DNA of 20,184 bases from NCBI RefSeq assembly GCF_000003605.2, contig NW_003148274.1, forward strand, positions 14,799-34,982, given 5' to 3'. Source of the stretch: Saccoglossus kowalevskii. Its lineage: Eukaryota > Hemichordata > Enteropneusta > Harrimaniidae. The notes beneath the pieces were generated by a model. It was not told the DNA's origin, made no database searches, and saw nothing but the letters and a program-made list of their open reading frames with translations. Positions 2,183-20,184 of this stretch are shown here, in pieces (position 1 is the stretch's first letter; each line of letters starts with the position of its first letter). A program made the position numbers and the translations under genes.

Positions 2183-5100
2183 CTGTAAACATACAAAACA
2201 GTACACGTTAGTGAACGCTCGTCAATTTAATTCTTCGGCATTAAGGAATATAGTGGATCACGGAATCCAGATATGAGTATGAACATTGCAGGACACGTGA
2301 CAAGCACGTGACAACTTACCGCTGTTAGAGTAAACGGATGCCATTCCATAGAAGAAATGCTCGGTATATTCACCATAATGTACTGGAGGAAATAAAACAA
2401 ACATAAAAAATAAGTTTGGTAAATCAAAGGTCGCCAACCAGTGATAAAGAAGATTACAATTATGTTTGTTAGGAGTGACCAAAGTACAAAGTAAAAGATA
2501 GTTCAATATTGCTATTGTACTAACACGGCAGTACCACGTCTAAATTTACTATTATAAATCGTTTGCGTGATGGCACACATAATATGACCGTGAGTAATAT
2601 AATAATAGACAGTTGATAAAATAAATAAAACATAGAAGTAAAAAGCGAGCGTGCCAGGATTCGAACCTGGAATCTTCTGATCCGTAGTCAGACGCGTTAT
2701 CCGTTGCGCCACACGCCCTCATACAAGAAAGACCGAATCACGACTGTAGCCAATTTAAGGGTAAGAAGTGTAAATATACATTTTTAAAATTTGGGAAAGT
2801 ATCATGGTAAAATATACACTAACATTTTAAATATTGTAATGAAATTAATATAAGTAAAAGGTATGAAGCCATACTGAGCAGCCAAAAAAGCGTTAGCGAA
2901 CCAAACAGAACCTAGCATGCCAGGATACGCAGCTAAATTTTCACGGGGAATGGCACAAGAATACTTTTGGGTCCATGATATCCGCACAACTTTTTCTTTA
3001 AATATCATGGCAACTTTCCCAAACTAGAAGCAGTCCAAGTAACGTGACATGCCCAACGGCAAGGTAAATAAATGAACAAAGAGATGAATACTTTACCTGC
3101 CCCGCTTTACCTCGAAATTTTTCTTTCGTGAAACGTATTTCGATGACGTCACATGAATGATGAACGACTTCTTGAATATTTGCCTCGCGGTATCGACTTC
3201 CCAGAAATCGACATATCTTTTCTATGGCATAGCACGTGAGCGGTACGACCACCCACATCCAAGTCTGTCAAAAAAGATGTACAGCGAGATGTCAAAACTG
3301 TTATTTCTCCTGGACAGATTTTATTGTAACCACGTCGGTACATAGCGTATGGGTATGCTATACAAAACAGTCAATAATACGTCAGACCAAACAGAGCCAG
3401 CACAATTATCACTCTGTAGTTTCAGGCTCTATGAATCGTGACAGGTTCAAACAAACACGGTCCATAACTAAACAAAATAGAGGCGAGCGAATATTTCAAC
3501 TGGGTGGTAGATCATACTAGTCAGGAGCCAAACATGCGTGATTTATAACCTGCCTCCAAAGTCTTTGTGATCATAACCTAACCTCTATTAGAAACATTGC
3601 ATCACCCCTTACCTAAGTGCAAGCAGTGATGGGAGTCATTAGTTTAGTATTATTACCTGTTGAGGTATCCTTATAAATATTGGCATTTCTTTACACGTAA
3701 CTGAAGACGAATCCCAATCCATGGAGCCTTCGGCATATGCCATTATATCAGTCTTATTCTGAATCAGGCAACCTGGAATATGCATAACTATATTTTCTTG
3801 CATTTTTAAAAGGCCCCTAGAACAAATATGAATATGATTCCTCATTTACATGCACGTAAAACCAGATTAACTTAAATACAACTGGGACAGAATGGCGTGA
3901 CATTTTCCTGGATGCCCTGATATAGGGTGCTTAGCACGAAGCACACGTCAAGGGTGTGGATTTCTTTGTTGTGTAGTGTCTGTACCATTAATGACTTGCA
4001 AATTGCACGCATAACCATATTCAATGCAACGGACACTTTGTTGAATTTTAGCTAGCATGTGATTTTAGCTACAATTTTAGCTACATAAAAATAAGCTAAT
4101 CGTGATACTGACACTTAAAGTAGTAATGTAGCTATTTCAAATGTTTTGCAGAAAGTTGCCCTAACCTAAAAAGCGAGTACCAAAGACCCTCCAGCGCTCA
4201 ATATATCATTCTGACCAGCTTTTGGTTTAAAATTCAGTGTTACCAGACAGAAATTATTTGAAATAGACAAAAACGTGTGCTTACCTTGATGCATGGAATA
4301 AAAGAAGTATATAAAAACAATAAATAAATGGTGAGTATACCAAAATATTTCATAGCTAGCAGTCCTGGAAAAGATGAATTATTTTATGAATTAAAATAAA
4401 TAAAATACAAACTTGGTTCACTCACAAGTTTCGACACAATTTTTTTTCTGAATGTAAAATTTAACCCCACACATATATTTCTTTAATGTCTTTCCATATA
4501 GACAGTGAGATTATGGGTGATACATTCGTGAAATTGACAGCCATGTTAGTTACTCACCTGACTGCCTTTGTTGATGACGTCACAATTACAAATAAAATTA
4601 TCATCATTGAAAAACCTGTAGCACCAGCAACTGTAAAGAGAGTTCGTGAGAGTGTAGAGTAGTAGTCAGCGATGATACTGAGAAGAAATCGAACTTTAAA
4701 ATCAAAGGTTCAAGATACAAGGCAAGACTAACACAATTGACGTAATAAACTCGTTTTACTCACCAGAACAAAAAAGTACTTTTCGCGGATCCTAGAAAAG
4801 ACAAATACGGAAGACTATTATAGCGCCGCCATCATGACATGTTAAAGACCGATACAAAACCATATAGACAATACACACTATTTTTTTGATGCTCACACTT
4901 TCCTTTTGTCAGAAGTTAGCGAGGTGTTTTTTTACGGTTATGAATTTAAGAGTATATGATTCAACAGTCGCCCTCTAGCGAAGGTTCTTGGTAGAGGGCG
5001 TTACTTAAGTGTGAATTCAGTTAATATCAGTCGCCCACAATCATGAAGATAAGACGTGAACGCACCTCATCTTGACAGCTTGCCAAATTGATTTCTGGGT

Positions 5101-8100
5101 AATTGTTATTGTACCGCTGAGAGGAATTTATGACGTTCGTAATATGACCAATAGTATGCACCGCTGAAATGAAAATGAAAATCTGTCAAAGTATTCAACT
5201 TCCATGATGAATTCAAAAAGTCATTGTGGTTACAATGCATTTCTAAGCATTTTAAAATAATTCTGTTAAATATTACGTTTTTTTAAAAACATTAGGTTAT
5301 GATTTATCGTAAAATAAAAATAATATGTTGGCTACAAACATAGCAGTATTCATTAGATGAAATACTGAGACACAAGTTGTTAATCACCTCAATGTACGGA
5401 TAAATCCAGAGCGTATGCGCATTAGAGTTAATTGTCTCATCGAAGGAAAAATTATAAACTTGTTTTTTTTCAAAACAACATTGTTAAGCTAAGATAAAGC
5501 ATATTATACTGTTTCTATCAAGATGCAATATCAGACAAAAATTTTTGAACGTCATGCTAATATACTGATATTCTCAAAGGGTTCGTGACAATATACACAG
5601 ATGTTTGGCATAAATCAGACGATTGGGAAGCTACATTCCCAGAACAAACGCACTTACCACCTGCCAGACAGACAAGGATCGCACAAACCATGTGAATTTG
5701 CTTCGCCTGGTCGATGAACCTTCGTACGCGTCGCTTAGCAACCTACACAAATTGAAAGGGAATAGACATTATTAACAAAAACTTAATTGAAGTTTCAACT
5801 GGACTTGGATAGTAGTATACCATATATCACGCTGAAACGAGTAGTTCCTATGAGTACGATGTTTTCTTAAATATCAATCCTAGAGAGGAGAAAACGAAAC
5901 GTATAGGACATCGTTTTGTTCTTGAAATGTAATTACTAGTATCATAAATTCTACAAAATAAACATGTTAGATACGTCAATACTACATCCCGTTCCATGTC
6001 GAAATATTAACAATGGATGGGTTGTCGGTTACGTTGGATAATCTGTCCATTATATCATCACCTTGTAGCCTCGTTCGTAATTTCGCACGGACAGTGGCTT
6101 GCGTGTATTTAAATTTGCACAAAGCGTCTATGTAATTGTAATTTAATAGGTTCTCAAAGCATTGGTAAATAAATTATGTGCGATTACCTTTTCAACATCG
6201 ACCGAAATAATACGTAGTATGTTTTAATCTTTTTCTAACTAAGGGTTAGACACATTTAAAGAACGACGACAATTTTTTGCGCAGGCGCACACTAAAAAAT
6301 ACCATGCTTGGTGCAGTAAAATGAAAACGTGCTAGTTTTTTATTTATTTATTTTAATCGGTAGGCTAAGAATGTTTGTTGACCGCAAAAGATTTCGTAGA
6401 CTCCATCTAAAAGTGGAACAGGTCTTGGGATCACGGGCCATTATGATTTTATTTCCATTTATCCAGTCATTGGTATTTATATATACCCATTAACGGTTTA
6501 TTCATTTTGTGAGTCATACCAAGATTTATATTCGGCATAGGCACGTGTCTAACAAGTTGTAAACAATGCCATTAATATTCCGTGTTCTAGTAGCAGTTAA
6601 GTCGTATCTTTGAAGTACGTTAGTAATACCGTTGTTATGGACGGAATTTAAATAACATGTAATAATCGCTAATTTCTGCCCAGAACTCTTTATCAAATTG
6701 CCAGTGGCGGAATGACATGGCGAAGTAACAGATACGTGGCTCGTTTAATTGAATAAACATGCATTCAGCTCGATAAATTTATGACAACAGATGTTCTGAG
6801 GTTGTCAGTTTATTATGTGCATGCGGGATTTACGAATAGTCGGGAGTGGTATTGTTATGATAAGAGTAAACACGAAATATAATATATATGAGCTTGCGTT
6901 GCGCTGTTAAATAAACAAAAATAAAAATGCATCACTAGTATTAGGAACTGATTGAATCAGAATTGCTGCTTTTCAACTTCGCAGAACGGTGACCGTGGTT
7001 GATTCAATAACCGAACGACACTCGTTACATATATTCTCGCTCACAAGAGAGTTTACTGGAACCATAGTTTTATTACGAGTGAGAGATATGCTATGTGTTC
7101 AATATAATTATATGGAAATTCGTTATAACGAGGTTACAGCATAGAAAACTCCTTCTCCCATTTGCCTGTGTTACAATATCACAATTTCGTCGATGGCTGC
7201 CCACTGAAGACACTTGTCACATTGGAATGTAAGATTGGAATAACGATTTTTTTAAATAAACAATTGAAGCAGTATTTCTGTAATTGAAGACTGAATGGTG
7301 GTGGATATTGTACTGATTCTCTATGATGTACACGTGTGTCGTTTGTCGACTTCTCGATATTCAATTGCAAATATCGAGATTAAAGTTTAATGACCTTATG
7401 TCGTCGTAAATGGTTGCAGTATATTTTTAGCTAGTGTTATAAGTATATTGGATGGTAGTGATAATATGTCGGTGAAAATTCATTTATGTTGTAAAACCAA
7501 AACATGTGGGAATGGAGTGCACTGCAATATCATTTATCGGTGACCTTTGACCTGAAACTACAGCGGTAAATTAGATCGGCATTTTACAAAAACATCAGCC
7601 ACCATTGAGCTGTAATCTACTCATTATGTTACTTGCAAGTACCCCTATGCAGTTACTATCAGCAACGAATTTTGGAAAATTGTGGAGTTTATTGCTGTTT
7701 ATGTGTTGTCTTCTCATATATCACTAAATATGTTTTGTTTATGTCTTGAACATAAATGGTACCATGGCTCGGAAATTCCGCGCAATGCCTGCCTTGCAAC
7801 AGGTTCAGTAATTTTATTGAGGTCCTTCGAGTTTTAAAGCTCTCTGATTTCCTGCCAACACAGGAACCAAGTTATCTCCAACAGCTGTTGTTGATCAACG
7901 ATTGGATATGTAAGATACAAAACCATATTGGCATGTGACTCAACTGCTTGCAGACTAACTATCACTACACTATCACTTGTTGTCAAAGATTGAATGAATG
8001 CAGCATATTTGTTTAATCGGGATCATCATTTGTATTGGGAAGAGTATTTGGGTGAATTGTATGATTTGTAACAGAATAAACTTTATTTAACTGGTTTATG

Positions 8101-11100
8101 TTGGCTGGTGAGTGAGCAAAGTTTTCACAATAAATAAGTGAGTCCCAACCGTCACGAACCAGTGAGGGAAACATGACAATTCCCCGTAAATTCGACGATT
8201 TGACTCGGCGTGGTCTACTAACTCACTAAGAATATTCAAAAATGGCGTCTTTGTTATCTTAAAGGTAATTATAAAATAGCCTGCAGTTGGTTCATTTAAA
8301 TTTAAAACGTAGCACATTGAGTTTGTTGTGCCTTCATGGTCTGTAAAACATGTCATAGTTTAGTGAAAATTGCCCTGGGCGGGGTTTTCAGGTTCACTTG
8401 GGGCACGACTTAACCAGAAGAGGTATAGTAGTAGTCTAATACGAGTATATTGTGATTTGTTGTAACACGCACCTTGTGAGAGCGTCTCAGACACGTCAGC
8501 AGCGTTCTACACATCGGAAGTAACACCATCGCACAGTTTAGGTTTAACACATCGGCAGTACCACGTGATATGCACAATCCTTTCTGTAAGAGAACACAAA
8601 ACAGTACTAATTGGAAATGTCCTGTATTGATAAATGCCAACATAAAACTTCGCGAGAACTGTTTGGTCGACACATAATTTTCACTGCGTAGCTATAACAT
8701 ATTATTGGTAACTATTGATGCAATCTTGGGGGCGTCATAACCTGCTAACAAAGAGGCGATATAAATAATTTATATTTTATCTTTATAGACATTTGGTTAA
8801 GAATTATCTTAACATTTTCACTACCAGACTTTCTCGCCAAAATGTTTCTATAATATTTTCTTATATTTTTCAATATTTCTGGAAATGAACCATAATGTTT
8901 AAGCCAGCAGACAAAATGTGAATAGATTTTCAGTGTTTACTAAAAAAATTGGCTATATTTGTCCCAATCTTGAGAGACTGTTTCGTTAATTTGTGGTGAA
9001 AAGCGGGAACTGGTGGAAAAAAGGTTAAACCATGGTACAAATAGTATTCGTTTGTTAAAATAATCAACAATGAAACTGTGCGTGCGTTTTGGAATAGCGA
9101 CCCACACAATTAATTGAATGCGCATGCGCATTGGAGGTAGAAGCATATTTTTTAGAAAGTTTATCATAATACTCATTGGTGTGTGTGCAATCATGTAGCT
9201 AGTTTAAAGTACCATATTTTGTAAGAGCTGACCAAACATTATTTTACAAATACTATCTTTTGAACAGTTCTATTGAAAGTGAAAGCAAAACAGCACGATT
9301 TTTAACACAGATTTTTAAATTCCTAAAACTATCAGACATGATTTATATTTTTTTATGCTATGGCTTTTATAAGACATAGCATTTCGACGATATAAACCAA
9401 TGGTAAAGACGCTGTAATATTGACAAAAATCACTAATATAATAATGATTTTCTCAATAAAATAGGCTGATGACTATTGACAAATGCTGTGTATTTTCATT
9501 TATTAGTAAGTTTCTAAGTAATATATTGTATGCTAAAAACAGAATGTTTTAGGTTACGAGAAATCATAATTATACATGTTATATTCCTTCAATTCTTCCC
9601 TCAGATGTGCTATGGTGGTGTAGTTGTAGACAATTTATTGAGCTGACTTTGACAAGCACACCGAGTTCACGGTCACTGGCTTTAGTGCTAATTTATGATG
9701 AGAGATAATGAAAGTATTTATTTGTAGTCACATGAGTTTAACAGTGTCTACTCTTCAGTTCTTCAGGCCCATTGTCTAACAACCCTCAGCGGCGAAACAA
9801 GGCGCACAGGTCTACTACGACCGCTGGCATGAATTTTGGTCGATCCACAATGGCGCGTTTTCAAATTGGATGCCCAAGAAAACGATGTTTACGACGAGTT
9901 TGCATCAACCCCACCTAAAATTACGACATTTCAAGAAATGTAGTGGTTTACATCAAGAAATAGTCATATATTATAATCAATAATATTCTAATAATTAACA
10001 AACTACTGTTGTAATATGTATTCTAAATTGTAGCAGCCTGCAGGGAAAAAACGAGGCAGAGGTCATCAAAATACTGTAACCGTGCATTTTCGAAGGAGTC
10101 TCGCGAGTTTCTTTCTCGCTCTCAACGCTCTATAGTTTGTTAATGTTTTCTTGATCATGTTTGTCATTTTAATGTTTATATCAACACATTTTATCTCCGA
10201 TTTCCCAGGCAGGATTGCGAACCAATGATAGGTTTGGTGTTACAAATCAGACCGTAAAATGACTATCGCGAAGGGTCAATCCATCGTATGTCGACCGGGA
10301 CCATTCAATAGCTTAGCACATCATAAAAGAAATAAGTAACGGATAATGGATCACTAACATGAGGGCTTAAAACTAAATATTTATCCAAACCAGAATTATA
10401 ATCACACGTACAAAAATAACATTTTTATAAAAAAAAATAGACCGATTTAGATTTGAATTAATAACACTCTGATTGGTTCTTAGTGAAAATACTTCATTTC
10501 CAACTTGACCATCGATGATGTGTTTATGCATTTGTAAAATGTTTGCACATACATTGATTGCCACTGCAATGTGTGAAAGTGTACACGATATAGGCGTTAC
10601 GAACAACAAGTTCCCATCTCTACTGTACTCTGTCAGTCAAGCGTGATTTTCTCGTTAACTTTATAATGAATCCGTTTAAAAGATATTATCGATCAGAAGC
10701 AATTGAAGTCACGTGCTTTTTTTCAGCAAGTACTGGTGTGATCGCCCATCGGTAATAAAACAACATACCCTGATGTAGCATGACACGCGTGCAGTATGTC
10801 CTAAAACATTAATGGCAAGTTAAATGCTATGCACTGTTCACTTTTTCTTTGTCCATATAGTAAATTTGAACTTCTTTGTAGGTTTTAAAATCCGCAGCTG
10901 ACATTTTAGCCTGAACATTGACTCGATGTGAAGCGCATTCCGCGATGGCTGAAATAACTTACATCGAATTGCTACTCTGATATCAGTTCGAGACACTTTG
11001 AATTGGAAATTGTGAGAAACAGTGGCTACTTTTACCCTGATTCCAGGCCCGAACCACTGCACGACTGCAACCTCCCCACTCCCCATATCACATGACGTTT

Positions 11101-14100
11101 ACCAGAGATGCCAATTAAATACTTCTAATCCGGAACCATTTATCAATGAAAGATAAACATCAAATATGTTTGGATAACTTTAGATCTGAACGACACACAT
11201 GTACGTGATTACAATGAGAAGTTGACCCAGATTAGAATTACTGGGATTCGCCGCGGATTAGTGTTACTGAAACTGGCCGCGTGTAAAAAGTATTGCGTGG
11301 CCTTGGGGCAAATTGGCAATTTCTCAACGTGAAATCAGAGCCAGTTTTACGGAAATAGACATAGTGTTAAATTTATGATGTTTCCAAACATGCTGTAACT
11401 GATACAAATGTGTGTTTATTATAACACACGTTTGGCTTATACACACAATTGCACAAAGTGTATAATTTATGGATTGAATCAAAGGGCTGACTGAGGTCAT
11501 GAACCTCGTATACGTCCCTGACACATGTTTTGGAACTAGAATTTTCATATTGAATACGATATAAAGCCTTCCAGGATACCACTCGCAGAAAATGGAAGGA
11601 TATGATTTAACGTCTGCTTCTTACTAGATAACAACAACGTTTATTTGTTTCTCAAATTAGATCAATATTTTTTATGAATAAAGTTAGACTGTAAACGGAC
11701 AATTTAATTGGTTGAAAGAGAAAATAACAGTGAAATCTATAAACGTTCGTGGTATTCTTTTGAAATAAAATCTAACCCTCTGACTTGTACTTCCTATACC
11801 CTTATATGCACATGCGTATACACACGTATCAACTAAACGGAGGTCAAGGTTAATAGTCCGGCATCTTTAATTAGCCTGTCTGGAAATGGTTCTTTTGTGA
11901 CACATTCTTATCTTCTTTATTGCCTATTCTAGTACTTCCTCTGTATCCTTATTATTCCTCACAACTGTGTGAAACTGTCGCGTAATAGTTCCTGTTTAAA
12001 GGTCAAACATCATTCTTCTTCACATTCTGGGGGTATGAGTTAGTAAGAATTTCCCACCGCCTCTTCCCCAAAGCCAGCAGTTGTTTAAAAAAGTTGAAAA
12101 CCAATTTAACACATGGCAAAAGGTAGGTGATTGGGAATTACTGCCGTTATTGGAGGGATTGCCAGGATGTGTGACCCTTGGGTACATGCCTAAGATACAT
12201 TCGCTGTCAATTTCCGTCAAAGCGTAGTTAGGGGAGCGGGGTTAGCAATAGTTCAAGGACACCATATGGCTAGATATAGGGGTGTAACATTCTGTGTAGC
12301 ACACTGCATTCGAGAAAAACACGTGCATAAACGTATCGACATTTGTCTTCCATTCGCCACATGCTGATGGTGGCCCCAGTGACCCCACAGGCTAACTGGA
12401 AAACCAGAAACTATGTTGAAGTTATAAAATAACAAGAACTTGTTGTACCACTGTCCCTCAACACTGTCATTGCTGGCCTGGGGGAATATGTTTACAGCTT
12501 CGGGTACGGTAAATATTAAAGGGCGGTGGTCGTCGCGCAGCGCGTGTTCGAATGTCATGTAAACAAACATAGTATTTTGTACGCGTTGTATACGTCTATG
12601 AGTTCCATATCGAAAAGATGCACTCACCACCGGGCACGCCCTCAACGTCGTACTTTACATAATGAAACACCCCCGATTCAACAATTTACTCTTCCTTTCT
12701 TTTTTTAAGTTAAAACTATTTTCATATACGATTTTTTTACAAATATAAACAGGACAATCTTCAGAAATATACTCATCATGATGCTGTTGCTTGACTGTAC
12801 GTGAAAGAGAAACGTCCACCATTTTGAAAAACTTACCCCTAACATCTGTCGAAGATAGAAATACTGTGGTCCCGTTTTGTATTCGTTATACGTTCTGCAG
12901 AACACAAGGCCGTTGATTCCCAGCCATACAACCTTGAGAAGAAACAAAAATAATAAACATTATTCTCATTTGTGTGTGTTCTGGAGATTCTTGAAACTTT
13001 AAAATAATATTGTGTGTGTATGTAATCAATCCATACACACTTCACCCAAAAATGTATTCGGTGCCGCTTTTAATGTATTTTTTGTTGTGCGTTATTAACG
13101 CATTGAATGTTATATCGGATGTGAGTATATTATTATATAATATTCTTTTCGAAGGTTACCCGGTTTGCGCTTAGTCTGTGATAATCTTTCATACGACGTG
13201 CACACACCATTACATCGCTTTGCTGTGTTTATCTTTGGGGTATGCGACCGACCAATCTTCTTAGCAAGTCTAGCTATCTATTACAGTACGTAGTGTGTAA
13301 ATATGAACAAACTGACCCCAAAACCTTCCCCTGCTCGTGCTTAGAAAATGTGTGTAAACGAGGCCAATATCCGAGGTATTGAACATTTGGCCTCGAGCTG
13401 TGTCACAATGCTGCACAAATCTGTACTAATTGCGAGACAATTCAGATTGCAAGCAGGCAATAATCTACGACGACATACCGACATACATTAAACAATTGCG
13501 TTCGGAATATTTACTGTCAAAGGTCAAGAAAAGTTGTATTTTGCCAGAGCAATATAGCGATATAGATTTTTGTTTGCAAATTTCTATCCCGATAAAAGAA
13601 CTCGAGAGAACTTGAGGAAAGAGATTGATTGTTGTAGAACAACAAGTACGAACCCAAACGTCAGTGCGTTCGCCACACAAGTTGAACTTGAATGTAATTA
13701 ACGATATTCCCAGCTTGTTCTCGTCGAGGCACGGTTTACGTTCTCTTCAGTTCTAGTTCTTTTTTATATATTATGTTTACCAGGTGTCGTAGATTATATT
13801 TCTACCTAAACTAAATCGCATTCTCTATACATGTTGCTGCTTATGGATTGTCCCCATAGAAATGGTCGTCTACAAATACCACCAGAACGATGGACTCGGA
13901 ACATGTTTATTTCAAATAATGGTAATTCTTTGGTAATAGCAATTATCGAAATCAAGAAAAACTATGGGTAACATGACATGTGCGTGGAATCGGTTAAACA
14001 TTTTCATGGTAGAAATGTACGTAAATCTGAGGTCACACCAAAGGTCACACCAAGGGAAGCACTGTGTCAATATTCACTCTGGGTGGTAATTATCAACTCA

Positions 14101-17100
14101 TCCAATTAATATTAGTAAGCCGCCAATATCTTCTGTTTTTAATTTCACGTTACATATACTTTAAACCGTCAATATTTGTGATTGAAATCCAAGTGGATGT
14201 AAGTCATATATATACCCACGTTTTCACGAGATGCTGAATTGTTTTAGTTACGGACAGGGAGTACGAAAACATCGAGTTACAAAATGACTCCGCCAATATT
14301 TTAGAAACCATGCCCACATTTTAAAAATCACGCCCACTTTTGCAAATTGTACACCCAAATTGTAACTCGAAATGTACTCATTACAAAATGACTCGTCGTT
14401 TGATTTATTTTATTGTAATTTATTTTAACATTCCATCGTTCGTACATTTTCATATGGGTGATTTTGAATACAGTATTATTGTCCAGTATTTGCGTTCCAT
14501 ATTGATTGAAGACATAAGCGACGGAATTTGATTCACTGATACGGTCGCACGGGCGCATTGAATTATTGGTACGTACTGTTAATGACAGCGCGTGCGCATT
14601 TACGGTCATGGTTTCATTTTGTCAACACAATGCATCGAGCAGCAATTGTCCGCGTTGTCCCGTTTACCGTCAATTAAACATCCTGGTGGTTTCGTTATTT
14701 CAGCATACTTATGTGTGAAACAGGTTGACTCGCCTGGTAAACAATGAATGGCATTGTGCTCAAACAAATGTTACGGAATTTGTTTCCGGGTCAATAAATA
14801 GATTAGATAGCATAACAGCGTCTCATCCACAGAGACCCTATTACTGGTACATTTGAATTGAAAAACGTACGAATTTGAATCACAGGACCACCACCAGTAA
14901 TCTGCAGATCAGCATCCTGGTGTAGGTCTTCATCTGTTCAACTTTGCCATGCGTCGGTCATATCTCACCACCAACAGCGGAAAGTAAACACATACTGGAT
15001 CAACCGTGACTGCAACGGTCTGTAACGGTACACCCGGGACAGTCAGCATGATCGTTAAAAGCTTCCCCAGAAATAATAAACACTGTTTTATCACCAAATG
15101 TAAAACAATGATCGCTTGTCTTCAACCATAATTGAGGAAACTATTTTCTTTGTGATGCTGTATCTGTGGATTAATTGGAAATGTGTGGACCCGACGAAAT
15201 AATAACATTCGCTATAAATTCCGATATATGAGCTCGTACAGGGCAGAGAGTGTAAGACAAATCAAGGAACATTTCAATCTGCAAAATTGACTTACAAATT
15301 AGTGTACTCAATGCGAATAACCTTGCCGAAATATTTATTTCAATGCAATAATTATTTGTTATATGACATAATTGTCCCACCACCCAGCTGTGATAACATT
15401 CATTTTCGCATCTTATCGGTGCGAAGCAGCATGTCATTCACTGCAAAGCGAAGAATCAGTGGGAAAAATAAGTTCGTTGTGCGTTCACTCCAGGCTCTAT
15501 ATATGACACAGAAGGTCGTCAACGAAGTATGCCAAGGTGGCACTTTTAGTTGTATCAGTCGTATAGTTCATGTAGCCCCTGTCGTTCAGTCTGCTGGTGG
15601 TAGGTAAACGACGCAACGGGTCAGATAATAAATCGTTGTCGTAAATGGTGACGACAATTTAGTGAACACAATTAGGGGCAGCACAACTATGCACATACGA
15701 TCAGATAAAATCCCCCCTCAATATCGAATGGCCCACCCTTAATCTACTTTTTCAAGCGAAAATGCTGCTCTTCGTTTCTTTCAACATGTATTCATTATTT
15801 TATTGCAAAACTTATCCAATCTCTATCCCGTTACTCACAGAAAATTTCTGATCTGACACGACGCACGCACATGAGCGTTTTCGTTTTCCAGACCAGTTTA
15901 AGATTACGGGCATGCTAATATTATTCTTGATCCATAGTGCGGTATACGAATTTTGAATTTTCATTAACACCAGTTTGTATATTATTTACTTTGTAGATTA
16001 TATTTTAAGCACTATTTACATTTTTTGTTCATAGCCTACAGTCGTGCCTACAGTCGTGTATACAGTCGTGCATACAGTCGTGTATACAGTCGTGTATACA
16101 GTCGTGCCTACAGTCGTGCCTACAGTCGTGCATACAGTCGTGCCTACAGTCGTGCATACAGTCGTGTATACAGTCGTGCATACAGTCGTGCCTACAGTCG
16201 TGCATACAGTCGTGCATACAGTCGTGTATACAGTCGTGCATACAGTCGTGCCTACAGTCGTGTATACAGTCGTGCATACAGTTGTTCAATTTCTGGTTAT
16301 GTGTGCTGTTATGGGTTTGGTAATCATAACAAAAAATATACAGAGAATATTTTTACAAAAAGAATTCCATTGAAGGGAAAAGTGCTGGAAAAAATATTCC
16401 AGCAACATTATTCCTTAACTAAAACTCAAATGTGAGGAGAGAGGTTTTTAATGGTCAACTTCTTATTAGAGTAGACAAAACGGCAAAGAAAAATGGGAAT
16501 TGTATGTTGACGATAAAACACTTAATAACATATTGCCAGTCTGTCTGAACATGCTGATGTTTTCTATGCACGTGTCTCTGATATATTCATTTATTAAACC
16601 TTGCTTTACCGTATACGATAGGATGCGACTTTATCTTCGTATTTATCAAGACCCGGCAATACTGTCAACACGAAATTATCTAATACCACAGGGGTAATGC
16701 GATACCGTTGCAATACAATTCGTGCCCTTATAGCCTCATTTGGGATTATTTGTATTCACGAACGACATACTTGAAATACTAGTTTCGACTTATTAATCAA
16801 GTCTCGTGTCCTCCGTGGGAATATGTCAATGAAGATATCAATATTTTATTGGAATATATGTGCAAAAGCAAGCAAAACTGATTATTAGGCGAAATACCTA
16901 TCCACGGTTACTAAAAAAATCTTTTTTAGTAACCGTGACCTATCGGAGCAACTGACGTCGCCACTCTCTGTGCTTCAGAGAAAATGATGATGTCATCATT
17001 CTGCGTTATAGTGCAAATGATGTCGTCCTGCCCCTGTCTTTGTTACAATAAAAGAAAACCTTGAATATCATATAAGAAATGATATGTGCTCGTTCCACTA

Positions 17101-19491
17101 CACCGGCCCAAATAACTATTTTTTTTTTGAGAGAGAGAGAGAGAGTTCTTTGAGCCAGCATGGATTTAACGTACAAATAACGATTGTGTGCTCCGATTTG
17201 CTGATAAAGAACAGAGATAATATATCACTTTCTTGAAAGTTAATAACTTAAAGGCGAAAGTTTATCCTACAATATTAACGGAATTCGTGTGCGTACTGGT
17301 AACTGTTCTTTTAATGGGTATCGCAACGTTCATAGCACAATCACTTGTACAATACCGAACGCACAGTGAATGTTAATGTGGTCCACCAGTAAGTGTAGAC
17401 CGTTGTGCTATATTGTTATATCACAGTTAATCCCATCAAATTACACCCACTGTTAATTTGATTACGCCAGACCTCAAAACGAGCTGAGCCGGCACGTTGG
17501 AAAGTCGTCACGTCCGATAATCGGGAATCGCATCTGCGCATAACACTTTAAGCAGTTCAAGTTGTCAGTCAGATCAGTGGTTTTTTCACCGCACCACGCT
17601 GCTGAAATCCACTCGCGAATTCCGCGTGGTATTCACACTGCGTACGATAGAACTTTTAACGTTACGACCTCCGCCGCTTTGTGAGGTTATGACAACCTCG
17701 TCACGGACTCCATTAATACTAACACGTTTTTGTTGTAATCTAATTAACTTCAAGCCCGTGTTGAGAGAAAACTACGTTGTTATTTCACGTGGACCATTAG
17801 CTCCATGCGTGAACCTGTATTACTGCTATCAAAGGGCGGTAAACTGTGACCCAACTGATCTTCTGCTACATAATTTTAACGTAACCAAAGAATTGTTCTT
17901 ACTGCAACTTTTTTTGTCGGTGTCTAGACCGAATAGTTAAAGCTACTTGATAATGTTGACTATAATTGTAACGCTTATGAATTCTCAGTCGACCGACACG
18001 TTGCAATTGTACAATTATTTAGTTTACGTGTCGTTTCCTTGCTATACGGCGGAAGTCAGCACTGTTTGTATCGGCTGTAGTGTCGGCTTTGACTTAGAGT
18101 AGCTACAATTGGGATGGTTTGTTTACGGGAGTAAATAAATGGAAATGGGAGTGTGTATTTTTTTCGGAATGATGGAATGTACCCAAGATCATCCCTAAGA
18201 TACACCACCATTCTACAATCAAGTCTCCAAATCTATTAAAAGAGAGTTTTCCTGATTTAATCAAATAATCTCAATCCCAACTGAACACAGTCTATGCTTA
18301 ACCCGTTAAACGTCGCAGTGATTTCCCGCCAAAATGTTGAGATAAAATTTTGCATTTCAAAATTTAATGTCTGTATTTGTTTGACGAAACTCTCGTATTG
18401 TTCATTTGACTATGTTTTTCATCACGTCTTTGCGCACATATTAGTTGAAACAAAATTATTTTGTGAATAATGACACAAGTTGTCGTTCTAGAGATTTATC
18501 GATTGTCCCTGTGTGCAATTTATAGCCGGTCAAATCAAAATCATGACAGCTGAACTTGACATACACACTTGAAATATTGCAATCGGTATGTATTATCACG
18601 ACACGAAAGTGTCCGGTAGTTTATCGACTCCCTCTTACACGCCATGTTTGTAAATAATAGTGCTGTCAAGACTAAGGAACTTTAAGACCAGTGAGGTATC
18701 AGTACTGTTATTATAGATCAGATTATCATAGTATGTTCTTGTAGATAATTCCTAGACAAGAGACTGTCACCATCAGTGACCCGTTAATGGGTGAAGGCAA
18801 ATGTTTACCAGGGAGGCGATAGTCAGGATCCGTTGACAATAAGCTTTGAAAATGTGACATTAACACGTATTGAATGCAGTGCAAAGTGCAAGCAAGTATG
18901 GGTGTATTCATACACATTGTTGGTATTATGGTGTTTGTAATAAAGAAAAAAAAACTGGGCTGACTTTTAAAATGCCAACTCGGCATAAACTTAATACTTT
19001 GACTTGCTCCCTGAAGCAACGGGATCAACTTGAATCGATGCGTATGAGTATGACAGGCAAATACAGTTATTTAATACAAGTGTAATAGAGATGTACTGTG
19101 GATTTATTTCATGAGATATGTACACTAGGTTGAAAGGTCAGCATGAATTTCTCCCACACACTGGTGTCTTATAAACATTGCATCTCGTCCTTGACATCGG
19201 GACGATATAAAGTGCTACACTTTTTATTAAATAGTGATATTTGACAAGCTGCGTGGTATATCTGTATTACGTAATGTAGGTGATTGGAGTATCCATACGC
19301 CAATATTAATGTCACACGTGTAAGTCTGCTTCATACATGCCAAAATCATAACACAGCATAAATTCAGTTTGAAACGCCAGAAGACTACGTAAGTCGAAGA
19401 AGGCAAAGACCAAATACAGTTCGTTTGCACTTACCAGTAGGAGGTATTTATATCCATCGTTGCGTAGCCAGTGCCGCCCGGATGTAACCAT
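2122..19491 (-). CDS. NOX4: NADPH oxidase 4-like (NOX4) gene, 12 coding exons, 3' end off window
   Basis: NOX4 is a membrane flavocytochrome that passes electrons from cytosolic NADPH through FAD and two haems to oxygen. In vertebrates it works with p22phox and releases mainly hydrogen peroxide constitutively. The spliced exons give, in order: a short N-terminus and TM1 (residues 1-45), TM2 with the motif LNLNCAMVLLPMCRTLL (64-80), TM3 with haem ligands His105 and His119, an NSS sequon at 129, TM4 (about 160-180), TM5 with FWYTH (His194) and His207, the E-loop with His222, Cys226 and Cys251, TM6 from TWMW (264), and the FAD motif HPFTLT in exon 11. GPQYFYLRQMLG, DPRK and PGC favour NOX4 over NOX1-3. 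All junction phases agree (0,0,0,1,0,1,2,2,0,0,0) once a one-base slip in exon 8 is allowed for. The last exon seen ends in phase 1 after GDWT. Roughly 200 C-terminal residues, including the NADPH site, are not in the window. Family identity is near certain; exon edges are by eye. Confidence 0.95.
2320..2382 (-). CDS. NOX4: NOX4 exon 11, FAD-binding motif
   Basis: Encodes YIMVNIPSISSMEWHPFTLT plus Ala, in phase 0 at both ends, between acceptor TTTCCTCCAG and donor GTAAGT. HPFTLT is the FAD-binding signature of the ferredoxin-reductase-like domain in all NOX proteins. EWHPF resembles NOX2; human NOX4 has ENHPF. Confidence 0.95.
2640..2644 (-). terminator. Pol III terminator of tRNA-Arg
   Basis: A run of five T on the minus strand begins one base after the mature tRNA 3' end, the usual Pol III stop. 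It should keep Pol III from reading further into the NOX4 intron. Confidence 0.8.
2657..2667 (-). promoter_or_regulatory. tRNA-Arg B box (Pol III)
   Basis: Minus-strand GGTTCGAATCC matches the B-box consensus GGTTCRANNCC exactly and forms the T arm. Together with the A box it would recruit TFIIIC. Confidence 0.9.
2701..2711 (-). promoter_or_regulatory. tRNA-Arg A box (Pol III)
   Basis: Minus-strand TGGCGCAACGG fits the internal Pol III A-box pattern TRGYNNARNNG and forms part of the D arm. Confidence 0.85.
3097..3264 (-). CDS. NOX4: NOX4 exon 10, transmembrane helix 6 and start of FAD domain
   Basis: Encodes 56 residues from TWMWVVVPL through CDVIEIRFTKEKF to GKAGQ, after acceptor ATCTTTTTTGACAG. 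TM6 leads into the cytosolic reductase domain. Exon 9 joins directly: CKEM...PQQ-TW has the same length as the human segment. A second GTAAAG donor sits 14 bases upstream of the one used (GTAAAG at 3091-3096); using it would shift the frame. Confidence 0.94.
3265..3656 (-). other. NOX4 intron 9
   Basis: A 392-bp intron from donor GTAATA to acceptor GACAG. Vertebrate NOX4 has extra E-loop residues in this part of the protein, but no coding segment was seen here, and the flanking exons already align without a gap from the second E-loop Cys to TW. Confidence 0.8.
3657..3816 (-). CDS. NOX4: NOX4 exon 9, extracellular E-loop
   Basis: After acceptor TTTGTTCTAG it encodes GLLKMQENIVMHIPGC onward to FIRIPQQ (53 codons, entry phase 2, exit phase 0, donor GTAATA). 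It holds His222, Cys226, a sequon at Asn230 (NKT) and Cys251, the equivalent of human Cys270. The loop between the cysteines is 19 residues shorter than in human NOX4 as I remember it. Confidence 0.92.
3817..4284 (-). other. NOX4 intron 8
   Basis: A 468-bp AT-rich intron from donor GTAAGC to acceptor TTCTAG. No repeat or RNA gene seen. Confidence 0.8.
4285..4364 (-). CDS. NOX4: NOX4 exon 8, transmembrane helix 5, carries a one-base frameshift
   Basis: After acceptor TCTTTTCCAG the frame reads TASYEIFWYTHHLFIVF, with haem ligand His194. Beyond the five-base homopolymer at 4313-4317 the family match continues only in another frame, as YILLLFHAS, which supplies haem ligand His207. With one more base in the run the exon would be 81 nt and end in phase 2, exactly what exon 9 needs. 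As written, the frame reaches TAA at 3806-3808 in exon 9. Donor is GTAAGC. Confidence 0.9.
4558..4630 (-). CDS. NOX4: NOX4 exon 7, transmembrane helix 4
   Basis: Encodes VAGATGFSMMIILFVIVTSS and then TKAVR, counting the split first and last codons. It lies between acceptor CTCTTTACAG and donor GTGAGT; entry phase 1, exit phase 2. It aligns column by column with human PGLTGVCMVVVLFLMITAST. The TGACGTCA palindrome here is coding sequence, so it is probably not a regulatory CRE. Confidence 0.93.
4764..4791 (-). CDS. NOX4: NOX4 exon 6, 28-nt micro-exon
   Basis: A 28-base exon between acceptor CTTTTCTAG and donor GTGAGT, encoding DPRKVLFCS plus one base. It matches human NOX4 DPRKLLFTT at the entry to TM4. 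The short size would hide it from most gene finders; both splice sites are strong and both phases fit the neighbours. Confidence 0.9.
4969..5000. repeat. 9-bp GC-rich inverted repeat in intron 5
   Basis: CGCCCTCTA and TAGAGGGCG are perfect inverse copies 14 bases apart, GC-rich within AT-rich DNA. Each arm resembles the core of the animal CTCF motif in opposite orientation, but could also be the remains of a small palindromic element. Confidence 0.55.
5066..5163 (-). CDS. NOX4: NOX4 exon 5, second TM3 haem ligand and extracellular C-loop
   Basis: After acceptor TTTCATTTCAG it encodes VHTIGHITNVINSSQ onward to CQDE, ending at donor GTGCGT. The His of VHT is haem ligand 119. An N-glycosylation sequon (Asn129-Ser-Ser) lies in the loop where human NOX4 also has sequons. 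The loop length equals the human one. Entry phase 1, exit phase 0. Confidence 0.92.
5164..5657 (-). other. NOX4 intron 4
   Basis: A 494-bp intron, strongly AT-rich around 5260-5340, with homopolymer tracts but no recognisable element. Confidence 0.8.
5658..5742 (-). CDS. NOX4: NOX4 exon 4, transmembrane helix 3 start with haem ligand His105
   Basis: Encodes 28 residues plus one base, beginning VAKRRVRRFIDQAKQIH after acceptor TTGTGTAG. The basic stretch is the cytosolic B-loop, and the His in QIH is the first haem ligand. Two donors overlap, GTGGTA and GTAAGT, three bases apart. The downstream one (used here) is stronger and gives the required 13 residues between the two TM3 histidines. Confidence 0.93.
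7352..7379. repeat. 10-bp inverted repeat with 8-nt loop
   Basis: TCTCGATATT pairs perfectly with AATATCGAGA around the loop CAATTGCA, whose first six bases are themselves palindromic. Function unknown. Confidence 0.7.
7541..7553 (-). promoter_or_regulatory. perfect DR1 nuclear-receptor element (candidate)
   Basis: Minus-strand AGGTCA-A-AGGTCA matches the DR1 consensus at all 13 positions. DR1 sites are bound by RXR heterodimers, HNF4 and COUP-TF type receptors, all present across animals. It sits mid-intron in NOX4, suggesting a possible enhancer; there is no functional evidence. Confidence 0.5.
8473..8583 (-). CDS. NOX4: NOX4 exon 3, B-loop and transmembrane helix 2
   Basis: Encodes 37 residues from KGLCISRG to CLRRSHK, after acceptor CTCTTACAG and before donor GTGCGT, phase 0 at both ends. 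VLNLNCAMVLLPMCRTLL is the NOX family signature of TM2; vertebrate NOX4 differs at only a few positions. The frame is also open upstream of the acceptor into intron, which is not coding. Confidence 0.95.
8584..12836 (-). other. NOX4 intron 2
   Basis: A 4.3-kb intron. The segment near 9770-9960 and the stretch 12000-12650 are richer in GC than their surroundings. The latter includes a 130-codon open minus frame (12253-12645) without a recognised domain. No clear repeat family, RNA gene or coding exon could be assigned. Confidence 0.75.
12837..12932 (-). CDS. NOX4: NOX4 exon 2, transmembrane helix 1
   Basis: Encodes 32 residues from VVWLGIN to FYLRQMLG. It follows acceptor TTCTTCTCAAG and ends at donor GTAAGT, phase 0 at both ends. 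The hydrophobic first half completes TM1. GPQYFYLRQMLG matches human NOX4 GPEYHYLHQMLG far better than the NOX2 equivalent. Confidence 0.95.
14030..14053 (+). repeat. 12-bp tandem duplication with two AGGTCA half-sites
   Basis: AGGTCACACCAA is followed at once by AGGTCACACCAA, giving two nuclear-receptor half-sites spaced by six bases. That spacing fits no classical receptor dimer well, so a simple slippage duplication is likelier. Confidence 0.6.
14273..14394. repeat. degenerate 20-bp tandem repeat flanked by short inverted and direct repeats
   Basis: Three 20-bp units (14298, 14318, 14338) share the form ATTTTA...A-GCCCAC. They are bracketed by CGAGTTACAA at 14273 and its inverse TTGTAACTCG ending at 14369. 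A 14-bp direct repeat TTACAAAATGACTC occurs at 14277 and 14381. This could be a small decayed mobile element or a local duplication. Confidence 0.6.
16035..16284. repeat. 12-bp minisatellite, 21 copies
   Basis: Units of NNTACAGTCGTG, whose first two bases are CC, CA or TA. Twenty copies have an exact core and the last is decayed. A period of 12 without stops keeps several frames open on both strands, producing YSRA/V, TVVH/P/Y and HDC-type repeats that should not be taken as proteins. Lies within NOX4 intron 1. Confidence 0.97.
16903..16937. repeat. perfect 16-bp inverted repeat with 3-nt loop
   Basis: CACGGTTACTAAAAAA and TTTTTTAGTAACCGTG are exact inverse complements separated by ATC. The tight hairpin could extrude as a cruciform, or be a relic of a palindromic element. 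It is too short for a microRNA precursor. Confidence 0.85.
17119..17145. repeat. T10 followed by (GA)8 tract
   Basis: A T homopolymer of ten bases runs directly into a 17-base GA microsatellite in intron 1. It may bind GAGA-type factors or be a neutral microsatellite. Confidence 0.9.
19435..19491 (-). CDS. NOX4: NOX4 exon 1, start codon and N-terminus
   Basis: Encodes 19 residues, MVTSGRHWLRNDGYKYLLL, which align without gaps to the human NOX4 N-terminus (WLANEG becomes WLRNDG). The start has purine G at -3 and G at +4, a good eukaryotic context. The reading frame stays open upstream without another well-placed ATG matching the family, so this ATG was chosen. The exon ends in phase 0 at the strong donor GTAAGT (19429-19434). 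Confidence 0.9.
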
Positions 19492-20184
19492 ACCCTTCTT
19501 GAATGGCTCCCTGAAACGACGCAAAATACTAGAAGACTTGAGTTTATAAGTGGTTGTAAGAACAATGGTAATTTCTTTCGATTTGAGTGTCCGTTCATCA
19601 CAGTTCGGTGGAGAATCTCCCACCTAGTCGTAAATGTTGTTGACTGTCTGATGAATTACACATGCCCAGGTCACACGGAGGACTCTTCCGAACAGAGGAA
19701 GCCCTGTACAATTTATAATTCATTGATACAGCACTTTATCACACGACGCTATTTCTTCCTGTCTGTTAACAAATCACCGTGTTATTTACTCGCCTTGATC
19801 ACAGATAGTGACTCATGTTTTCACAGTCATTGGTTGTCTCAAGTCCTCTTGTTGTACAGTATACAGTAGTCCTGGGGTATACTGAAACCCAGCCAGACTT
19901 AAGCTGTTTTACTTACGCCGTGGAAGAGACTATTGTCTGTGTGTGTAGGGGTGGGCAGGGTATTTAAAGATGGTGACCGTTTCTAGAAGGCAGAGATGTT
20001 ACTGCCATTCGTTGCTATGATTGGGTAATTTTGTGACGTAATACCTACGTGTATGTATTGAGACAATACATTTAGCAAATACGGTAATAGCAACTACGAC
20101 TGCATATACATGACATTTTACAATAATTTTTGAACCCGTGTCATACCGTGAGTGCGGACCTGCACAGACTTCCCTGCATACAAC
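19492..20184 (-). other. NOX4 5' UTR and upstream flank
   Basis: The 693 bp to the right of the start codon should hold the 5' UTR and possibly the promoter. The frame 19471-19869 (plus) has no recognised domain. Candidate promoter motifs cluster at 19961-20041. An untranslated upstream exon beyond the window cannot be excluded. Confidence 0.6.
19947..20041 (-). promoter_or_regulatory. possible core promoter cluster
   Basis: On the minus strand, in transcription order: a CRE-like site (TTACGTCA, 20034-20041), a CCAAT box (20020-20024), an HSE-like palindrome TTCTAGAA (19981-19988) and a TATA-like TTTAAATA (19961-19968). The TATA-like site also reads TATTTAAA on the plus strand next to a G-rich box, so the direction is uncertain and the call is tentative. 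Confidence 0.25.

Follow-up and report, generated by a model that had tools for sequence, protein, structure and literature searches.

Loop C is 25 residues long in NOX4 and 37-41 in NOX1-2, and three E-loop residues of NOX4 (His222, Cys226 and Cys270) set its H2O2 output, according to passages of PMC5372347. A passage of PMC1940245 places histidines that share the H-X12-H spacing at residues 209 and 222 of human NOX2. NOX4 is already known in the wider group, with one echinoderm entered in Table 1 of PMC5372347, and sections of two older surveys (PMC1940245, PMC2121648) report no NOX4 in sea urchin. Three NOX surveys (PMC5372347, PMC9524095, PMC2121648) do not mention Saccoglossus or hemichordates in their main text.

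We analysed a stretch of 20,184 nucleotides from the hemichordate Saccoglossus kowalevskii (the window, C3850:14799-34982 on the plus strand, in whose numbering coordinates are given unless a contig is named). Twelve exons of an NADPH oxidase of NOX4 type lie on its minus strand, with 1,080 coding bases counted from a candidate ATG, and the gene is apparently the single-copy NOX4 of this acorn worm. Exon 1 (19435-19510) reads MVTSGRHWLRNDGYKYLLL, aligns from human NOX4 residue 1 and is preceded by AG and followed by GT. The candidate start ATG (19491-19489) is tentative, the frame of exon 1 being still open upstream of it. Exons 2 (12837-12932), 3 (8473-8583), 4 (5658-5742), 5 (5066-5163) and 7 (4558-4630; TM4 region) were found as tblastn matches. 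Exon 6 (4764-4791; 28 nt), which contains a frame-keeping T6 run, is too short to be picked up separately by tblastn. The cumulative exit phases of exons 1-7 are 0, 0, 0, 1, 0, 1 and 2. TM5 with the heme-ligand histidines is encoded by exon 8 (4285-4364; 80 nt) and the E-loop with the equivalents of His222 and Cys226 by exon 9 (3657-3816). Exon 10 (3097-3264) runs from TM6 to the FAD domain and was matched by tblastn, NOX2 and Pfam. Exon 11 (2320-2382) and exon 12 (2122-2182) were matched by tblastn, the latter being the last visible exon, with the remainder expected to fall in an N stretch. GT donors and AG acceptors were present at all splice sites of these exons (12/12 and 12/12). The initial annotation had called every other exon and splice site intact, which stands for the 12 exons of the window; the C-terminal exons are out of view, their expected place on the window's scaffold (C3850:1-14798) reading N.

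The assignment to NOX4 was indicated by alignment scores, the 5' part of the gene reaching 231 bits against human NOX4 vs 155 bits against NOX2, and the 3' part 125 vs 99.8 bits. Pfam placed Ferric_reduct (PF01794; E 3e-15) in the 5' part; FAD_binding_8 (PF08022; E 5.5e-14) lies in the 3' part, in a frame that differs from that of the 5' part. The NADPH-binding half (PF08030) gave five matches in the assembly at E<=1 and none on C3850. A genome search with Ferric_reduct returned two matches, both on other contigs; the window gave none, which shows that short exons escape such a search. In comparison with NOX2 (gp91phox; 8gz3_B, 8kei_B, 7u8g_A) the gene belongs to the same fold family, with E-values of 1.5e-39 (5' part) and 8e-25 (3' part) against 8gz3_B. 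NOX2 differs in a longer loop C region, where it is separated from the acorn worm 5' part by gaps of 7, 9 and 3 columns, whereas the same region has the length found in human NOX4, judged by a gapless alignment to its residues 1-200. Also shared with human NOX4 are His222, Cys226 and a third E-loop cysteine in a common C-x-E-x-P-x-F context. Unlike human NOX4, the acorn worm has a shorter E-loop (exon 9, 3657-3816), with the third cysteine at 251 instead of 270; its C-terminal NADPH-binding exons are out of view, and its exon 8 is one base short as recorded.

Three further elements were noted around these exons. A tRNA-Arg (ACG) gene lies in the intron between exons 10 and 11 (2645-2718, minus strand), on the same strand as NOX4. 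The intron between exons 1 and 2 holds a 12-base minisatellite (16037-16282) of about 20.5 copies of TACAGTCGTGCA, and a 35-base minisatellite of about 21 copies with 89% matches occupies 2-733, at the left end of the window beside an N stretch.

The frame break in exon 8

Read from its acceptor in the frame set by exon 7 (entry phase 2), exon 8 gives TASYEIFWYTHHLFIVF, which fits TM5 of NOX4. An A5 run (T5 on the coding strand) sits at 4313-4317, after the coding-strand G at 4318, as the initial annotation had reported, and here the family match switches frame. Past the run, the same frame continues as IYFFYSMHQ-GAF and ends at a TAA (3808-3806) after 212 residues, the premature stop that the initial annotation had predicted. 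In the other frame the sequence is YILLLFHAS, continued into exon 9 as RGLLKMQENIVMHIPGC. Exon 9 is stop-free in only one of its three frames, that entered in phase 2, and exon 8 as recorded exits in phase 1; one more base in exon 8 would bring the two into agreement, as had been proposed.

The 5' part aligns with residues 1-200 of human NOX4 without gaps and with 50.5% identity, and the other-frame part begins at residue 201. With the two frames counted as contiguous, the heme histidines occupy positions 194 and 207, and His222 and Cys226 have their human numbers, which bears out the earlier reading of this region. The H-X12-H spacing at 194/207 is present only in this contiguous count; as recorded, the frame carries H195-X12-H208 and then stops. 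Aligned to the solved structure of human NOX2 (8gz3_B), the 5' part breaks off within TM5, at residue 215, and when exon 8 is read in one frame to its end the NOX2 match covers only its residues 3-19 of 29. NOX2 leaves the first 52 of the 160 residues of the 3' part unaligned, so the match of YILLLFHAS-RGLLK rests on human NOX4. One tblastn alignment kept exon 8 in a single frame with one extra residue, a solution that leaves the phase of exon 9 unexplained.

The entry phase of exon 8 is set by conserved sequence, whose counterpart in exon 9 demands another exit phase, so chance is a very unlikely cause of the disagreement. At the level of the recorded sequence we regard the frame break, and its place within a few codons, as confirmed; the exact position of the missing base is set by homology to that same precision. 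It is the one frame break in the 12 exons of the window, and no second lesion was seen in them. Four other runs of at least five bases occur in the NOX4 exons (T6, T5, A5 and A5), all of them frame-consistent. Seven pairs of inverted repeats were found, none of which overlaps exon 8.

Splice and recoding routes past the break

Reading frame could in principle be regained by bypass splicing, in which exon 8 is skipped or its donor is joined to a cryptic acceptor inside exon 9. Exons 7 and 9 do join in frame when exon 8 is left out, and the result stays open through exon 12; the skip, however, deletes TM5 together with both of its heme histidines. Pairing of 32 donors with 31 acceptors yielded 28 frame-open combinations, five of which use the normal donor of exon 8. 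The best of these five enters exon 9 at an acceptor 44 bases inside the exon (product ...IYFFYSMHQ-GCLIQNKT) and retains the histidine at the H195-X12-H208 spacing carried by the recorded frame, but it loses His222, and its acceptor scores 5.6 vs 8.0-16.0 for the normal acceptors of the gene and 16.0 for that of exon 9 itself, on a home-made matrix built on the NOX4 gene. Frame-open routes are moreover expected by chance, because roughly one site in three has a suitable phase, and since YILLLFHAS-RGLLK is conserved in the other frame, the ordinary route seems to have been under selection. An in-frame splice route, which the initial annotation had said would tell against its account, thus exists on paper and only in weak forms, and we consider bypass splicing improbable. 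Chance frame-open routes of this kind may nonetheless mislead gene predictors.

The frame could likewise be restored in some or all transcripts if, at the U5 run, ribosomes underwent programmed frameshifting or the transcript slipped. A single-tRNA slip of Phe-UUU by one base back yields exactly the family sequence. The register at the run, however, is GUU UUU AUA, and inspection revealed no slippery heptamer (X-XXY-YYZ) in register. Predicted structure downstream was ordinary (12 windows, z -1.75 to +2.45), and five is a short run for slippage. A frameshift element was rejected on the missing in-register heptamer and the unremarkable folding downstream, and recoding as a whole is the least probable of the explanations considered here. 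Scarcely more probable is a combined case, in which the deletion is real and fixed and NOX4 would still be made through recoding at T5 or a shifted exon 9 acceptor, with TM5 rebuilt as FIYFFYSMHQ and its heme histidine displaced (H195-X12-H208).

Origin of the missing base

The remaining explanations place the fault either in the assembly or in the animal. The assembly (572,110,611 bases in 4830 contigs) was searched for further copies. A 251-base query carrying exon 8 matched only itself. A 200-residue query gave eight listed matches, seven on C3850 and one on C211, a NOX paralogue with 33% identity. A second haplotype or a paralogue carrying exon 8 was accordingly rejected, and among the matches listed the assembly holds no second copy of NOX4 and no intact second haplotype. 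With no other copy among those matches, nothing marks the gene as a decayed duplicate accompanied by an intact one. An old pseudogene was also rejected, given a single frame break and intact GT donors and AG acceptors (12/12 each).

An assembly or consensus error is the explanation that we favour, with a little more than even confidence, because the lesion is single, the other exons of the window are conserved and a second copy was not found. Past the break the sequence follows NOX4 from residue 201 onward, with His222 and Cys226 retained and, in the contiguous count, the heme spacing as well; its FAD-domain portion has a Pfam match. Under this explanation the record would be one base short in the T5 run inside exon 8, the base would have been lost in consensus or assembly, and the usual allele of the animal would be intact and would make a normal, H2O2-producing NOX4. 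The initial annotation had likewise ranked a homopolymer assembly error first. That ranking is kept as plausible; the step to it has become less automatic, the run of five A being short and the assembly not looking indel-prone, with its long N stretches and no frame break between neighbouring matches in the survey described below. The frame-consistent runs elsewhere in the gene also count against a homopolymer error.

Indels in the assembly were gauged from HSP70, myosin-head and actin matches, a neighbouring pair less than 60 bases apart being taken as the sign of a mid-exon frame break. The lists, which comprise scored candidates only, held 111 matches over 23,352 bases (HSP70 26, myosin-head 56, actin 29). 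Not one of 88 neighbouring pairs was less than 60 bases apart, although the yardstick is rough and short exons such as exon 8 would escape it. Stops lay inside 35 of the 111 matches (HSP70 5/26, myosin-head 25/56, actin 5/29) and were taken for intron ends. The scaffold of the window contains eight N stretches of 1.4-14.8 kb which, if they are true gaps, suggest paired-end scaffolding rather than noisy long reads. The earlier S. kowalevskii genome was reportedly based on Sanger reads. It is described as short read-based in a passage of PMC11175523, according to which genomes of Schizocardium and Ptychodera have been published too.

A real one-base deletion in the sequenced animal, truncating NOX4 within TM5 as a null allele or a very young pseudogene, is the strongest competitor, one that we hold to be a serious possibility though clearly less probable than an error. 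The initial annotation had named a polymorphic null allele as its alternative, and we keep it with more weight than it was given there. Such an allele is favoured by the few indels that the assembly seems to contain (0/88 pairs) and by a run of only five, and the lack of any further lesion is what a young segregating allele would show; an intact second haplotype that would contradict it was not found in the assembly among the matches listed. Against it stands the conservation of the gene elsewhere in the window. Were the gene dead and evolving neutrally, the finding of a single lesion would date the event to within about 1.2-2.1% divergence (with assumed lesion ratios), a range that would fall within the polymorphism possible for an outbred marine animal. 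The stop at 3806-3808 lies upstream of several exon junctions, so the transcript of a null allele would probably undergo nonsense-mediated decay. A true null allele would mean a natural loss of NOX4 in a model hemichordate.

The locus resembles both single-base frameshifts of draft genomes and segregating loss-of-function alleles: one lesion, in a short homopolymer, in a gene that is otherwise intact in the window and for which no second copy was found. The finding is most likely an ordinary one and no new biological device: either a known gene has a one-base lesion in a draft genome, or its allele is broken. Its meaning is mainly a caution for annotation, in that automatic annotation would truncate or mis-splice hemichordate NOX4, and surveys of NOX evolution could then count the gene as lost or non-functional.

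Further observations

Two observations concern open frames. A 423-codon open frame on the minus strand of L023 (offset 8542 of the reverse complement) appeared by eye to be retroelement gag-like. On the mitochondrial contig, two near-identical ORFs of 81 residues, 191 bases apart, follow COX2 (L031:6443-6879), which suggests a tandem repeat.

Gene order and codon use were also noted on the mitochondrial contig (C4830; 17,037 bases). COX1, identified by Pfam, lies on the strand opposite to the adjoining ND1 and COX2, and ND2 precedes ND1 (genes other than COX1 named by eye). Passages of PMC3121625 describe for the S. kowalevskii mitochondrion within Hemichordata an inversion of COX1, a transposition of ND1 or ND2, AAA coding for Lys and AGG unused, and state that cephalochordates share the states of AAA, AGG and AGA; AAA is likewise given as Lys in part of PMC2697986. 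On gene order, which carries the comparison because the codon states also fit cephalochordates, the contig probably belongs to S. kowalevskii (taxid 10224) or a close relative. In ten mitochondrial genes of the contig we counted 47 AAA, 5 AGA and 0 AGG codons.
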